Shown here: piece by piece, positions 25,265-41,692 of the stretch
Position numbering within the stretch: the stretch's first letter is position 1
Layout of the letters: every line of letters begins with the position of its first letter
Assembly (NCBI GenBank): GCA_947503035.1
Contig: CANNCD010000004.1
Coordinates: 62,001-126,000, forward strand
DNA: 64,000 nucleotides
Source of the DNA: an uncultured Halocynthiibacter sp.
Lineage (GTDB): Bacteria; Pseudomonadota; Alphaproteobacteria; Rhodobacterales; Rhodobacteraceae
Direction of reading: 5' to 3'
Translations under genes and position numbers: made by a program
The notes under the pieces: generated by a model
Told to the model about the DNA's origin: nothing
The model's database searches: none
What the model saw: only the letters and a program-made list of their open reading frames with translations

Positions 25265-25777
25265 ATGAAGGGTAAATTCACCACTGAACTTGCAGTCATG
25301 CTGTTCTTCTTTATTGGCGCTGGGCTTGCGGTTTTGTTCATGGGGCAACTCGTGGCGCCGCCCAAGGTGTTGATGGGACGCATGTTGACCGCCATTTCAC
25401 CAAGCCTGTTTCCGACACTGATCCTGACCATGTTGTCCGCACTGTCGGCGGTGATGGTTTGGTTCACGTTGAAAAAACCGGCCGAGGAAAAGACCGAGCC
25501 GACCCTTCACAGGGATGAAATTATTCGTGGGGTTCTCTTGTTTGCCTTTATGACGCTCTATGCGCTCATGATGGTGCCATTTGGGTTCCTGATCTCGTCC
25601 TTTATTTCTCTGGTGCTGATCTCTTGGCTGTCAGGCAACCGTTCGATCATCCAGATCGTGGCCTTGGCTATCATCGGCCCTGTGGCGCTCTATCTCGTGG
25701 CCACGCGGGTGCTTGCGGTATCGCTTCCAGAACTAAACGCAATCGAGCTGTTCTACGCGCAACAGCTTGGTCTCTGA
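25265..25777 (+). CDS. tctB: Tripartite tricarboxylate transporter small membrane subunit (TctB)
   Basis: 170 residues with four to five membrane helices (about 8-28, 40-60, 85-105, 108-125, 130-150), as in TctB. ATG with GGGGGGCGTGAC just upstream. It is followed 19 bases later by tctA, with tctC further down. It works as the small integral partner of TctA in the TctABC secondary transporter. An in-frame ATG 75 bases upstream would add an unlikely polar N-terminus. Confidence 0.8.
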   Translation: MKGKFTTELAVMLFFFIGAGLAVLFMGQLVAPPKVLMGRMLTAISPSLFPTLILTMLSALSAVMVWFTLKKPAEEKTEPTLHRDEIIRGVLLFAFMTLYALMMVPFGFLISSFISLVLISWLSGNRSIIQIVALAIIGPVALYLVATRVLAVSLPELNAIELFYAQQLGL

Positions 25778-28382: not shown

Positions 28383-29462
28383 ATGAGACAAGTAGACGTA
28401 GCCGTGATTGGCACAGGTTGGTGCGGTGGTATCCGTGCAGAAACATTGTCGAGATCCGCTCTTGTCGATCGGTTGCACATCTGTGAAATCCGCCCCGAGC
28501 GTCTGGCCGAGGTCAAAGAGCTTACCAATCCGGCGACGGCGACCACGGATTACCAAGACATCATCAACAACCCAGATATCGAGGTCGTCTATATTTCGAC
28601 GACCCCCGAACAGACCCATTACCCCATCGCCAAGGCCTGTATGCAGGCGGGCAAACACGTTCTGTTGGAAAAACCACTTGCTCTTGAATTGTCCGAGGCC
28701 GACGAATTGATCGCGCTCTCCAAGGAAAAGGGCGTGAAATTCACCATCGGCTATTCCCAACGGTTCGCCCCCAAAATCGCCTATGCCAAAAAGGCTATAA
28801 GCGAGGGTAAATTGGGCAAGGTCGTGAACGTCATGGTCAGCCGCCACCTGTCGCGCAACCTTGGCAAAAAGATCGCCAACCGTGTGAAATTGTCCCCTGC
28901 GGCAATGGAAAGCACCCACGATCTTGATTTCGTATTCTGGCTTCTTGCGCCGGCGAAACCTGTGCGTGTTTATTCGCAGGGCGCTTATGGGTACATGAAG
29001 GATTTGAACGGATCCTATGACTGTATGTGGAGCACGGTGACCATGGACGACGGCACCTTGGTCGTTGTCGGTGGGGGCTGGAACCTTCCTCCGAGCTATC
29101 CGAATTACTGTGGCACGTGGATCGAAATCACTGGCACCGAGGGCGCGTTGATCCTTGATGATACCAGCCGCGATAATTGGATGAACACGGTTAAGGACGG
29201 CACGCAATTCCCCATGTCCACGATGCCTGGCGAACAGGTTGATCACGCCTTTGCTGGTCAGATGGGGCCCGAGACATTGCACTTCCTTGAATCGGTTTTG
29301 CTGGACGGCGAAGTGATGGTCGACCCCGAACACGCCCGCATGGTCATGGAAAGCTACTCTGGTGCGGATGTCTCTGCCGAGATCAACGAACCTGTGAACC
29401 TGCCCCTGTCGAACGAGGCATTGGCCAAGCTGGATGATATGCGGATCAAGAACCAAGGCTAG
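28383..29462 (+). CDS. Gfo/Idh/MocA family NAD(P)-dependent oxidoreductase
   Basis: 359 residues. N-terminal Rossmann domain (VAVIGTGWCGGIRAETLSR, about 5-23), then STTPEQTHYPIAKACMQAGKHVLLEKPLAL with the conserved EKP, and a C-terminal alpha/beta substrate domain including the STHDLDFVFWLL catalytic-type segment. Family members oxidise sugars, inositols or related polyols. It closes the tct transcription unit and is followed by a strong terminator. A second family member lies about 1.1 kb away on the opposite strand. The substrate is unknown. Confidence 0.87.
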   Translation: MRQVDVAVIGTGWCGGIRAETLSRSALVDRLHICEIRPERLAEVKELTNPATATTDYQDIINNPDIEVVYISTTPEQTHYPIAKACMQAGKHVLLEKPLALELSEADELIALSKEKGVKFTIGYSQRFAPKIAYAKKAISEGKLGKVVNVMVSRHLSRNLGKKIANRVKLSPAAMESTHDLDFVFWLLAPAKPVRVYSQGAYGYMKDLNGSYDCMWSTVTMDDGTLVVVGGGWNLPPSYPNYCGTWIEITGTEGALILDDTSRDNWMNTVKDGTQFPMSTMPGEQVDHAFAGQMGPETLHFLESVLLDGEVMVDPEHARMVMESYSGADVSAEINEPVNLPLSNEALAKLDDMRIKNQG

Positions 29463-36628: not shown

Positions 36629-39055
36629 TTAGTCGTGCAGACCGAGGTCATTGGCGGTTTGCCAAATGCGCCAGTGGTCATGCGGCATGTTGGTGTGCGT
36701 GTTGCCAAACGGGCGGAACGCATCCTGAACCGCATTTGAGAAACACGGCACGCCGCCGACATGGGGGCTTTCGCCGACGCCTTTGGCGCCGATCGGGTGG
36801 TGCGGAGATGGCGTCACGGTAAAGTCGGTCTCATAGTTCGGGACCTCCCATGCTGTTGGAAGGAAGAAGTCCATCAGCGTACCGGTTTTGACGTTGCCCT
36901 GATCGTCGTAGGCGATCTCTTGGCCCAGAGCCACGGCGAGGGCCTCGGTGAGACCACCGTGTATTTGACCGTCGATGACCATCGGGTTGATCCGCGTTCC
37001 ACAGTCATCCAACGCATAGAAACGGCGGATTTCTGGAACACCGGTGTCCACGTCGATATCCATCACACAGACATAGGCGCCGAACGGATAGGTCATGTTG
37101 GGCGGATCATAGTAGGACACCGCCTCAAGACCTGGTTCAAGACCGGGGATCGCTTGGTTATAGGCGGCATAGGCGATTTCCTTCATGGTCTTGAACCGCT
37201 CAGGCGCGCCCTTGACCACGAAACGATCCACGTCGAATTCCACATCATCGTCGTGAACCTCAAGGAGGTATGCCGCGATCATCTGTGCCTTGGCACGGAT
37301 TTTGCGTCCCGCCATGGCCGTCGCCGCACCGGCAACCGGTGTGGAACGTGACCCGTATGTGCCCAAACCATAGGGCGCGGTGTCGGTGTCACCTTCCTCG
37401 ATTGTGATGCTATCGGCAGGCAGACCAACTTCGGTCGCAAGGATCTGTGCGAAGGTTGTCGCGTGACCTTGGCCTTGGCTGATGGTGCCCAGACGTGCAA
37501 CCGCGGAACCCGTTGGGTGGATGCGGATTTCACAGCTATCGAACATGCCCATCCCAAGGATATCGCAGTTCTTTACAGGGCCCGCGCCAACGATCTCGGT
37601 AAAGAACGTCAGACCAATGCCCATGAGCTTGCGGGTTTTGCCGGCCTTGAAATCCTCAACCCGCTGGGCCTGCTCTGCGCGCAGACCTTTGTAATCCACG
37701 GCCTCAAGCGCCTTGTCCCATGCGGTCTGATAATCACCAGAGTCATATTCCCAGCCAAGCGCCGCCTGATAGGGGAATTGGTCCTTTTTGATGAAGTTCT
37801 TAGAGCGCAGCTCAGCAGGGTCCATGTTGAGCTTGATCGCGAGAACCTCGATCATGCGTTCGATGAAATACACCGCCTCGGTCACGCGGAACGAACAGCG
37901 ATAGGACACACCACCGGGGGCTTTGTTGGTGTAGACACCATCCACACCCAGATAGGCGACGGGAATGTCATACGAACCGGTACAGATGTTCATAAAGCCG
38001 GCAGGGAATTTGGTCGGGTCGGCACAGGCGTCAAACGCACCGTGGTCGGCCGTCACGTGGCAATGTAGACCGGTGATCTTACCGTCCTTGGTCGCCGAGA
38101 TTTTGCCCTTCATCCAATAGTCCCGCGCGAAGGCGGTGGACATGAGGTTTTCCATGCGGTCCTCGACCCATTTCACAGGCAGACCGGTGACGATGGACGC
38201 AACGATGGAACAGATATAACCGGGGTAAACGCCAACTTTGTTGCCGAAGCCGCCGCCGATGTCAGGGGCGATCACACGGATGTTGTGTTCTTCGATACCC
38301 GACAAAAGGGACGCAACCGTGCGCACAACATGCGGTGCTTGGAAGGTGCCCCAGAGCGTCAGTTTACCGTTCACCTTATCCATCGACGCAACCGATCCGC
38401 AGGTCTCAAGCGGGCAAGGGTGCGTGCGGTGGTAATACATCTCTTCGGTGGCAACGACTTCGGCGCTGTCCATCACTTGGTCGGTGGCTGCTTCGTCGCC
38501 GGCCTCCCATTTAAAGATGTGGTTCGGGTGTTTGCGTGGGCCATGGGCGCCATCGGCGGCCTTGCCGTCGGCATCAAGCGTATCTTCACGAAGGGACACA
38601 TCGGATTGAAGCGCCTTGAACGGGTCGACAAGAACCTCAAGCTCTTCGTACTCGACCTCGACCAATTCCACCGCATCCGCGGCGACATAGCGGTCAGCGG
38701 CCACAACGAAGGCGACCTCTTGGCCTTGGAACAACACTTTGCCATCGGCCAGAACCATCTGTTTGTCACCGGCCAATGTCGGCATCCAATGTAGGCCCAG
38801 CGGTTCCAGATCCTTGGCGGTCAGAACGGCGGTCACACCAGGCAATGCCATGGCGGCGTCGATGTTGATCGACTTGATCCGTGCGTGGGCATAAGGGGAG
38901 CGCACAAAATCACCGTGCAGCATCCCAGGCAGTTTTACGTCATCGACATAGTTGCCCTTACCCTGTGTGAAACGCGCGTCTTCCACACGTTTGCGGGAAC
39001 AGCCCATGCCCTTAAGATTGGCGACGCGATCTTCGCGGGTTACTTCGTCCTTCAT
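36629..39055 (-). CDS. coxL: Aerobic carbon monoxide dehydrogenase large subunit (form I)
   Basis: 808 residues, the usual length. The active-site loop reads SYRCSFR at residues 384-390, with Cys387 equivalent to the Cu-bound Cys388 of Oligotropha carboxidovorans CoxL. This is the form I signature (AYxCSFR) and separates it from form II (AYRGAGR). Other molybdenum-enzyme motifs are present: [19 protein letters not shown] and GAKGVGES near the C-terminus. The first loop residue is Ser rather than the usual Ala. It oxidises CO to CO2. It overlaps coxS by four bases and is followed by coxD 50 bases later. Confidence 0.95.
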
Positions 39056-39546
39056 TGCGCCGCCTCCTTGGTTGCGTTGATTTCAGCAGCGGCCGAAAGA
39101 ACAGATTTCACGATGTTCTGGTAACCGGTACAGCGGCAGATGTTGCCCGCAATGCCGAAACGAACCTCTTCTTCGGTTGGGTTCGGGTTTTCCTCCAACA
39201 ACTTGGACGCGCGGGTGATCATCCCGGGGGTACAAAACCCACACTGAAGCCCGTGGTGTTCCTTGAATGCCTCTTGCAACACATGCAGGTTATCGGGGGT
39301 GCCGATGCCTTCGATGGTGGTGATCTCGGTCTCGTTGGCCTGAGCGACAAACACGGTGCAGGATTTCACGGATTTCCCGTTCATCGTCACCGTACAGGCG
39401 CCACAGTGCGACGTTTCACAGCCCACGTGTGGACCGGTGATGTTCAGTTTTTCACGCAGCGCATAAATCAGCAGCTCGCGTGGCTCGGCTAGGAATTCGT
39501 GGTCCTCGCCGTTGACGTTCAATTTGACGTGCATCTTCTTTGACAT
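39052..39546 (-). CDS. coxS: CO dehydrogenase small iron-sulfur subunit
   Basis: 164 residues. Two [2Fe-2S] clusters are visible. One is the plant-ferredoxin type (CETSHCGAC ... C, about 49-72) and one the C-terminal four-helix type (CGFCTPGM ... CRCTG). ATG at 39546 has GGGAGGAG upstream; the 41-codon upstream extension is spurious. It passes electrons from the Mo/Cu site of CoxL to FAD of CoxM. It follows coxM by 13 bases and overlaps coxL (ATGA). Confidence 0.95.
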
Positions 39547-39559
39547 GTGGTTCTCCTCC

Positions 39560-40414
39560 CTATGTCCGTGACCATGCGCGGGCAATCGCGCGGCCCAGAA
39601 CAATGCCAGCAGCGTGGCGTTTGAATGCGACAGGTCCGCGGTTGTCCTCGGTTGGATCAATGTCACCAAGCATCGCTTGGATCGCGGCCTTTACGGCACC
39701 TTCGTTGCAATCCGTACCGATCAACGCGTCGGCGGTTGCCTCGGACCAAACCGGCACATCGCTTAGGTTGGTCATGGCGATGGATGCGGTGGCGACCACT
39801 CCGTCGACCTTGGTCATCTGCACAGCGGCCGCAGCCGTCGCATAGTCACCGATCTTGCGTTTCTGTTTCTCGTACGCGTACCCACCCGACGGCGCGTCAA
39901 AGGAAATCCCCGTAAGAACCTCTTCGTCTTCGCGGTCGGTCATATAGGCCGCCTCATAGAAATCGCGTGCCTCGACGGTACGTTCGCCGTCTGGGCCGAT
40001 CAGATGGAATTCGGCGTTCAGACATTGCATCAACCCTGGCATGTCATTGCCCGGGTCACCATTGGCAACATTGCCGCCGATTGTGCCCATGTAGCGCACC
40101 TGAGGGTCGGCAATTTGCAAGGCCGCCTCGCGCAGAATTGGCACCGCAGACGTCAGTGCGTCGGAGCCAATGATGTTATGCTGGGTGACCATCGCGCCCA
40201 GTGTCACTTTGCCATTTTCAACTGTGATATTCGCAAGGCCGTCGATGCCTTGTAGATCGATGAGATGCGGAATGTCTGCCATCCGCAATTTCATCATGGG
40301 GATCAGGCTGTGTCCGCCTGCCATGACGCGCGCGTCATCCCCGTGTTCCTCCAAGAGGGCGATGACGTCCTCCATACTGGCTGGTCTGTAATACTCAAAC
40401 TCGGCTGGTATCAT
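39560..40414 (-). CDS. coxM: CO dehydrogenase medium FAD subunit
   Basis: 284 residues. The FAD-binding motifs [13 protein letters not shown] (about 32-44) and [14 protein letters not shown] (about 111-124) are intact. A C-terminal CO-dehydrogenase flavoprotein domain follows. ATG with GGAGG upstream. First structural gene of the cluster, 135 bases after coxC; the gap holds an 11-bp direct repeat. Confidence 0.95.
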
Positions 40415-40512
40415 TGCTTGGCCTCCCGATCCGCAACGTTATGTCAGGAGTCGACCTTGTACGCCGCCGTATGCCGTGGCCCGCGTTATTCAATGAATTA
40501 ATGGCTTATTTT

Positions 40513-40544
40513 CACGAAATGCGCCTAGGCGCGCACGAAATGCG
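40513..40544 (-). promoter_or_regulatory. Direct repeat, candidate LytTR operator of coxM
   Basis: CACGAAATGCG occurs at 40513-40523 and again at 40534-40544, exactly 21 bp apart, or two helical turns. It lies between the coxC stop and coxM start, about 100-130 bases upstream of the coxM ATG. On the minus strand each unit reads CGCATTTCGTG and includes TTCGTG, fitting the TTnnnG element reported for the CO sensor RcoM. LytTR proteins bind direct repeats at this spacing, and the adjacent gene encodes one. Confidence 0.55.
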
Positions 40545-40549
40545 AAACG

Positions 40550-41692
40550 CTACATGCCCAATGCGTCGCGCACCGCCTTAAGGTTCGAGCGGCTTACCGG
40601 AACCGGCGGAAGCTCGGGTGATTCAAAATGGCACACCCCGTTATCCTTGAGCCGCTCAAAGTGGTGCACTTGCGTCGGGTTCACCAAATAGCTGCGGTGG
40701 GTCTTAAGAAATCCATGCGGGGTCAGGCGCGTCGTGGCCTCGGTGATGGGCCAAACGCAAAAGTGTTTCGTGCCTTGGGTATAGATGTTCGTGTAATGCC
40801 CCTCGGCGCGGACAAAGGCGACCTCGGCGGGATCAATCAGGTGGGTCACGCCATCGCGTTCACAGGGAATACGGGTCGGAATGGGCTTGTGTGCGGGGGT
40901 GTCGATGACTGGCACAGGTGTGTTCCCCGCGATCGGGGCCACGTCCGGTTTTGGTTCGGACGGTGTCGGGACAAGGAAGGTCACGCTCATCCAAAGAAAC
41001 GCCCCAAAGATGACAAAGCTCGAAATGATTACCCCAACGGCAAGAATTTCGTTGCTCATCACGGGGCCGAATTCGTTGAAGTTTGGTGTGGCGATAAATT
41101 TGGTCCCTGCCATGGCAACGAAATGCACCGCGCACACAGCCGCCCCAAATCCAAGCGTTCCCAAAAGAATGTTACGGTTGGTCCGTTCGTCGTAGGCAAT
41201 CCAAAACGCGCCAATACACAACGCCACCGCAGAGACTATCGAGAACCCAACGCCGACCGGCGTGTAGACCGCGCGGCACAGTTGAAGTCCTGCCATCCCC
41301 ACATAGTGCATCGCGACGATACCCATCCCGACAAGCGCCCCCGCCGCGCAGAGCGTCACAGGGGTGCGTTCGCGAAAATGCAGAATCAAAAGGGCGACCC
41401 CAACGATCAAAATCGCCAACAACGCCGAGGCCAAGGTGATCGCCGCGTCATAGTAAAACAGGATCGGCATTTGGATGCCCAACATGGCCACAAAATGCAT
41501 CGACCAAATCCCACCCCCAAGCGCAACAGCGGACATTGCGACCGACCCTTTGCGGCGCGAAACGCTTTGTTTGGAGATGTCTTTGGACAGGGTCAAACCG
41601 GTAAAACCCGCCACGATCGAGATGATGATTGAGGCGATGACAAGGGCTGAGTTGTGGCTAACGTCAATAAATACCATGGGGGTTAATTGCAT
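40550..41692 (-). CDS. coxC: MHYT-LytTR membrane sensor-regulator, CoxC/CoxH-like
   Basis: 380 residues. The N-terminal 245 hold seven predicted membrane helices with three MHYT-type motifs (MHFVAM, MHYVGM, VHFVAM), thought to bind a diatomic gas through Cu or a similar metal. After a Pro-rich linker (about 245-275) comes a LytTR DNA-binding domain (about 280-378: VAFVRAEGHYTNIYT, FLKTHRSYLVNP, VPVSRSNLKAV). This is the architecture of CoxC and CoxH of O. carboxidovorans, and it sits in the coxC position upstream of coxMSL. It probably senses CO and controls cox transcription directly; this is inferred. Start at the first ATG; one at +5 codons is also possible. Confidence 0.88.
   Translation of the reverse strand: MQLTPMVFIDVSHNSALVIASIIISIVAGFTGLTLSKDISKQSVSRRKGSVAMSAVALGGGIWSMHFVAMLGIQMPILFYYDAAITLASALLAILIVGVALLILHFRERTPVTLCAAGALVGMGIVAMHYVGMAGLQLCRAVYTPVGVGFSIVSAVALCIGAFWIAYDERTNRNILLGTLGFGAAVCAVHFVAMAGTKFIATPNFNEFGPVMSNEILAVGVIISSFVIFGAFLWMSVTFLVPTPSEPKPDVAPIAGNTPVPVIDTPAHKPIPTRIPCERDGVTHLIDPAEVAFVRAEGHYTNIYTQGTKHFCVWPITEATTRLTPHGFLKTHRSYLVNPTQVHHFERLKDNGVCHFESPELPPVPVSRSNLKAVRDALGM

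Follow-up and report, generated by a model that had tools for sequence, protein, structure and literature searches.

A conserved pair of direct repeats between coxC and coxM as a candidate operator for the MHYT-LytTR regulator CoxC in Rhodobacterales

The window, by which the whole 64-kb stretch of DNA analysed is meant, carries a CO dehydrogenase gene cluster on its minus strand. The gene coxC (40550–41692) encodes a regulator of 380 amino acids with MHYT and LytTR domains (Pfam, 1.7e-34 and 2.9e-17, respectively). It is followed by coxM (39560–40414), the presumed first target, which encodes the medium (FAD) subunit of CO dehydrogenase (Pfam FAD_binding_5 and CO_deh_flav_C), then by coxS (39052–39546) for the small (2Fe-2S) subunit and coxL (36629–39055) for the large (molybdenum) subunit. 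The Pfam domains agree with the neighbours named in the original prediction, an MHYT-LytTR protein and coxM. Both coxS and coxL were assigned from their open reading frames, from tblastn matches in relatives and from a gene order that is the same as in annotated relatives; the start of coxS was picked by eye.

In the window CoxC, two MHYT stretches are fused to the LytTR domain, and the MHYT motifs read MHF, MHY and VHF. Among 84 aligned CoxC proteins of the family, the methionine of the third motif is replaced by valine in 83%, and all three histidines are invariant. The third motif of Afipia CoxC is MHY as against VHF in the window protein, a difference that bears on the copper site. A sequence search for LytTR proteins of solved structure related to the CoxC DNA-binding domain gave no match at E values up to 1. 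A single other LytTR match is present in the genome, an ORF of 261 amino acids at G000:C3:58131-58391 (L003), the N-terminal half of which appears hydrophobic by eye.

On the minus strand, the stop of coxC (40550) and the start of coxM (40414) enclose a gap of 135 bp (40415–40549). Within this gap CACGAAATGCG occurs exactly at 40513–40523 and again at 40534–40544, a start-to-start distance of 21 bp, as first reported; the window contains no further exact copy. Read on the coding (minus) strand, the 11-bp repeat is CGCATTTCGTG, and the order is coxC stop, CGCATTTCGTGCG (repeat 1, 40532–40544, core TTCGTGCG), 8 bp, CGCATTTCGTGAA (repeat 2, 40511–40523, core TTCGTGAA, 21 bp after repeat 1), 96 bp and the coxM start. 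Repeats 1 and 2 yield the two best single-site scores in the window with the matrix described below, and a palindrome, GCGCCTAGGCGC, sits between them. The unusual feature is the pair, not CACGAAATGCG alone: with up to two mismatches the window holds 30 matches to the single motif against a shuffle mean of 36.9, so that the motif by itself is not enriched. Exact direct repeats of at least 11 bp at distances of 15–60 number five in the 64 kb, where composition alone predicts 0.014 per distance, or approximately 0.6 over the 46 distances. For distances of 20–21 inside the 135-bp gap the same expectation is about 6e-5, an optimistic figure since exact direct repeats are commoner in the window than the simple composition estimate. 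The case for the repeat is carried by conservation and not by this chance figure.

Further sites of a CoxC regulon were sought across the 3.09-Mb genome with up to three mismatches in 20. At a spacing of 21 only the coxM site was recovered and at a spacing of 20 there were no matches, for a pattern search that covers sites within three mismatches of 20 and that more divergent ones escape; the reversed pattern, used as a control, gave one match at 21 and none at 20.

In a family sample of 394 genomes, CoxC was present in 93 at E values up to 1e-60. A pair spaced by 20 or 21 bp precedes coxM in all 93, that of G226 being weak, and the expectation that the gaps of relatives would carry the repeat was borne out. 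Eighty-five of these genomes were read by the gap and enter the alignment counts, and eight were read singly: G007 (pair score 44.6), G327 (41.5) and G278 (44.5), where coxC lies away from coxM; G295 (41.1) and G186 (41.4), at contig ends; and G226 (17.0, weak), G275 (38.2) and G252 (38.0), which were fetched later. When spacings of 18–23 were compared in the 85 gaps, the best pair fell at 20 bp in 41 and at 21 bp in 44, with 0–5 mismatches of 22 to CGCATTTCGTG. With spacings of 11–59 allowed, 82 of the 85 peaked at 20 or 21, the other three at 13, 14 and 29. Among 1700 Markov shuffles, 21 scored as well as the worst real pair; among 85 stretches from the interior of coxM, none did. Mean pairwise identity was 0.83 for the repeats versus 0.30 for ungapped downstream sequence, and mean information amounted to about 1.5–1.8 bits per base in the repeats, 0.36–0.6 in the spacer, 0.4–0.5 in a third unit and 0.2–0.3 beyond. 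The family counts do not represent independent events because the genomes are related.

The conserved unit spans approximately 13 bp, with the consensus CGCA-N-TTCGTGCA. The exact 11-bp copy originally described holds as such, while this longer unit and the weaker third unit of the relatives had been overlooked.

All five named Rhodobacterales plasmids that were read (Pseudosulfitobacter, Marivivens, Aestuarium and two Roseivivax strains) carry the pair, with scores of 38.4–45.1, and the named carriers include strains isolated at a shallow-sea vent, on a tidal flat and in a marine aquarium. Outside the family, a class-level sample of 385 genomes contained CoxC-like proteins at E values up to 1e-35 in 15, eleven of them from other families. 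For G656 and G514 the fetched stretch contained neither coxM nor a pair, and both were left out of the count; a gap pair scoring at least 15 was present at eight of the nine coxM-bearing loci, the ninth (G575) reaching 7.4.

The association of the site with CoxC was examined using a strict pattern, CGCANNTCGTG, 9–10 bp, CGCNNNTCGTG, across all 394 family genomes. It was found in 53 of the 93 genomes with CoxC versus one of the 301 others (Fisher, 7e-39), never more than once per genome, and was absent from 40 of the 93; the reversed pattern matched in five genomes. All but one of the 54 matches lie 88–136 bp before coxM and on the coxM strand. Where coxC is distant from coxM, by approximately 4 kb in G007, 14 kb in G327 and 30 kb in G278, the pair stays before coxM in all three, and the fetched stretches around the relocated coxC hold no comparable pair. 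Seven genomes possess coxM and no CoxC at E values up to 1e-60. Two of them (G102 and G353) stop at a contig edge, and two have a divergent CoxC, with a pair scoring 33.8 in G320 and a poor one of 11.0 in G017. The last three serve as controls devoid of CoxC within the fetched 3.9–4.2 kb, the part of each genome that was covered: a pair before coxM is absent from G008 and G083, whereas G109 shows a weak one (17.2).

A weaker third unit, TTTCRT, follows the pair in the relatives, in most cases 41 or 42 bp beyond the first unit. Its distance from the second unit is 21 bp in 23 of the 41 genomes of the 20-bp group; among the 44 genomes of the 21-bp group it is 20 bp in 25 and 21 bp in 12. The outer distance is accordingly 41 bp in 48 and 42 bp in 12 of the 85 genomes, and the middle unit floats by 1 bp. 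At +41/+42, a third unit with at most two mismatches of seven was present in 51 of 85 genomes versus 21 of 85 for a control stretch further on. The window counterpart, ATTAATTCATTGA (40490–40502, minus strand, 21 bp after repeat 2), is a presumed degenerate repeat 3, placed from its position and its kin; with three mismatches in the seven core positions it is no better than the control stretch and too degenerate to stand alone. In the nearest relative (L004) the third unit is ATCATTTCGTTGA, and the window and its nearest kin fit a 21+21 arrangement. The operator probably comprises three units rather than two.

Neither a consensus sigma-70 promoter nor a sigma-70 -35 box was found in the window gap. 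The presumed -10 hexamer, TACAAG (40456–40461, minus strand; TACAAT in L004), is a prediction at offset 83, counted from where repeat 1 starts, and is not the top-scoring -10 of the gap, which falls at offset 103. A -10-like TANNNT occurs 82–87 bp from repeat 1 in 16 of 85 genomes, where shuffles gave a mean of 3.6 and a maximum of 10 in 300 rounds. This clustering comes from the 20-bp group (12 of 41, shuffle mean 1.7) as against the 21-bp group that includes the window (4 of 44, mean 2.2). A -35 scoring more than 2.5 of approximately 7.6 bits at 16–18 bp from the best -10 was seen in only 10 of the 85 genomes, a count made without a shuffle control. The units end at about offset 53, and a -10 at offset 83 would place the -35 at approximately 60–66, downstream of the repeats. 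With the -10 in the presumed position the repeats would thus sit just upstream of the -35 position.

CoxC had been taken to be uncharacterised together with its operator. This does not hold, as the data in the available sections of PMC11347149 mean that CoxC and one operator are already characterised, although at PcoxB and not in the coxC–coxM gap. According to those sections, CoxC of Afipia carboxidovorans represses PcoxB in E. coli and CO relieves the repression through the copper-dependent MHYT domain; CO abolished DNA binding by the full-length protein, and three TTNNNGCN repeats are required in PcoxB and bound by CoxC (PMC11347149). The repressor claim there appeals to an operator that overlaps the -35, and coxM appears in the same sections as a gene name only (Introduction and Figure 1 legend). 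Of the window units, both of which contain the TTCGTG core matching TTNNNG, repeat 1 (TTCGTGCG) conforms to the TTNNNGCN pattern, as does the family consensus TTCGTGCA, and repeat 2 (TTCGTGAA) departs from it by an A in place of C.

Placed from the primer substitutions, the published PcoxB repeats TTACCGCC, TTTGGGCA and TTGCGGCA stand at 25704, 25733 and 25759 of the megaplasmid pHCG3 (PMC11347149), with start-to-start distances of 29 and 26 bp, unlike the usual spacing of LytTR sites. A matrix built from 84 family genomes, with the window excluded, was scanned over all 133,057 bases of pHCG3. The Afipia and window CoxC proteins are only about 30% identical. The first-ranked match on pHCG3, CGCAGTTCATGCG/CGCCGTTGGTGGA at 25687 (score 24.6), lies inside PcoxB, with AGTCGTTTGGGCA 20 bp further. 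The register at PcoxB would then be 21/20 bp as against the published 29/26, with TTCATGCG at 25692 and TTGGTGGA at 25713. When spacings of 14–41 were compared on pHCG3, the best pairs were those at 21 and 20, the next being at 40 (17.0). The published mutants do not discriminate between the two registers: PcoxB1 also alters the invariant G of unit two and PcoxB2, judged from its primer, alters unit three. The cloning primer for PcoxB begins within unit one, losing its CG. Downstream of the re-read triple come TTGATG (offset 61) and TATCGT (offset 85).

The second-ranked match, CGTATTTCGTGCA/TGCTTTTGGTGAC at 28727 (19.9), falls in the Afipia coxC–coxM gap and the third (18.1) within a hydrogenase gene. 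As matches inside genes score up to 18.1 and 14.3, the Afipia coxC–coxM site is little above background. The same gap pattern is present in B. betae, with a score of 28.1. A further pair at 20 bp, AGCAGTTCATGCG/CGTAGTTCGTGTT, lies directly behind coxH, the second Afipia MHYT-LytTR gene (pHCG3 37939–37995, L138); its score of 15.2 is at background level, but the pair is intergenic, and CTCGTG occurs near the place of a third unit.

The repeat very probably represents an operator of the CoxC-type LytTR class, bound by CoxC before coxM (PcoxM). This reading is drawn from the conservation of the pair, its geometry of 20/21 bp, the way it tracks CoxC and its location before coxM. The LytTR operator for CoxC that was originally proposed is thus supported by conservation and by the distribution of the strict pattern, and needs amending in its number of units, two having been described where three are probable. 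The repeat would form the high-affinity part of a candidate CoxC operator at the promoter of coxMSL and of the presumed maturation genes behind them. The LytTR domains of membrane-anchored CoxC would be lined up next to one another along a single face of the DNA, on units of the CGCANTTCGTGCA type placed 20–21 bp, or two turns, apart, and CO at a copper-loaded MHYT membrane domain would change the binding of CoxC to DNA and so switch the cox genes.

Canonical LytTR sites, of which we take those of AgrA and ComE to be examples, show a related layout. They too are direct repeats about two helical turns apart, but have two 9-bp units separated by 10–13 bp and a sequence unlike that of the window site (PMC11347149, in part). 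The RcoM operator of Paraburkholderia xenovorans is described there as three TTCNNGCA repeats with 12–13-bp spacers, equivalent to 20–21 bp start to start (PMC11347149), and the TTCGTG of the window units fits this element as had been predicted. Direct repeats at 20–21 bp, probably three in the window site as well, a LytTR domain, CO as the presumed signal and cox genes are common to both; RcoM, however, senses CO by haem and activates, whereas CoxC is a membrane MHYT protein, and the window site has an additional conserved CGCA to the left of each unit. With Afipia PcoxB (PMC11347149) the window site shares an MHYT-LytTR CoxC, a TTNNNG core in its direct repeats, an aerobic CO dehydrogenase cluster and, probably, the number of three units. 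The two differ in that the Afipia operator precedes coxB with spacings of 29/26 bp, while the window site lies between coxC and coxM with 20/21 bp and the longer unit CGCANTTCGTGCA.

By transfer from the Afipia protein, CoxC at this site is somewhat more readily seen as a repressor that would leave the DNA on binding CO. Repression is hard to reconcile with an operator located upstream of the presumed -35. The same operator might act with the opposite sign, CoxC activating coxM in the presence of CO from just upstream of a promoter that lacks a good -35. We entertain this possibility tentatively. It draws on units that end at about offset 53, ahead of the TANNNT accumulation at offsets 82–87 (16 of 85), on the missing sigma-70 consensus and scarce -35 boxes, on a re-read PcoxB triple that likewise ends before TTGATG and TATCGT, and on the statement, in the available part of PMC11347149, that RcoM, like most LytTR regulators, activates from a binding site upstream of the -35. 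It has to contend with the repression of PcoxB by Afipia CoxC in E. coli and the loss of full-length CoxC binding with CO reported in the same source, and with a -10 clustering that rests on the 20-bp group, the window's own 21-bp group giving 4 of 44 where shuffles average 2.2.

It is very improbable that the site serves a DNA-binding protein other than CoxC. The second LytTR protein of the genome, with its 261 amino acids, would be a candidate, yet the pattern follows CoxC over 394 genomes and the matrix recovers PcoxB, the very Afipia promoter bound by CoxC. Still less credence can be given to a chance or neutral repeat, or to an RNA hairpin or terminator with GCGCCTAGGCGC between the units: the spacer palindrome is present in the window, where exact direct repeats are also somewhat commoner than composition predicts, but the spacer holds 0.36–0.59 bits as against 1.5–1.8 in the repeats and the palindrome was not seen by eye in the gaps of relatives. 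A hairpin or terminator in the coxC–coxM gap was rejected, the spacer being far less conserved than the repeats and no terminator having been found there.

For the CoxC operator itself, the separate points can be joined into one more far-reaching reading, which we consider unlikely to hold in full. In alphaproteobacterial CO oxidisers the ancestral CoxC operator would lie at the coxC–coxM junction, with three LytTR units, an outer distance nearly fixed at 41 bp and a middle unit that floats by 1 bp, upstream of a promoter without a good -35. The native role of CoxC would be CO-dependent activation. The PcoxB operator as published would be mis-registered, with CGCAGTTCATGCG, CGCCGTTGGTGGA and AGTCGTTTGGGCA as its real units, and Afipia would possess additional CoxC/CoxH operators at two places, before coxM and behind coxH.

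The open-licence PMC literature yielded no report of roseobacter cox regulation or of a coxM operator beyond PMC11347149. The type of switch is already known; no earlier description of one at the coxC–coxM gap was found in that literature. New and open to checking are the conserved unit, an outer span that is nearly fixed, the retention of the site by coxM when coxC moves and the re-reading of the Afipia operator. Together these provide a precise and widely conserved candidate binding site for the MHYT-type CO sensor CoxC in Rhodobacterales and an alternative reading of the sole published CoxC operator, which a few base changes could check. The sign of CoxC control also becomes testable at a second promoter.

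Several minor observations were made on the loci of relatives. On Pseudosulfitobacter plasmid pSMR1-4 (L106), which is typed as conjugative, the block of coxC, operator and coxMSL lies beside relaxase and transfer genes. The plasmid of Roseivivax sp. THAF197b (L144, 3104–3343) has coxC and the operator intact and coxM matched for the first 36 codons only, with no coxS or coxL match in that stretch; its sister strain THAF40 (L143) has all of these genes. Repeat 1 begins inside the end of coxC in 23 of the 85 family genomes, for example in the last 19 bases (L010, L011, L013, L017 and others), and the last residues of the regulator, a GAVRA-like tail, are consequently a translation of its own operator. 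A dyad, GYATRC-N4-GYATRC, precedes coxM in nine of the 85 genomes (e.g. L013, L014 and L018) against a shuffle average of 0.02. It stands 69–84 bp after the start of repeat 1, at offset 69 in seven of the nine, and may be the site of a second regulator or part of the promoter.
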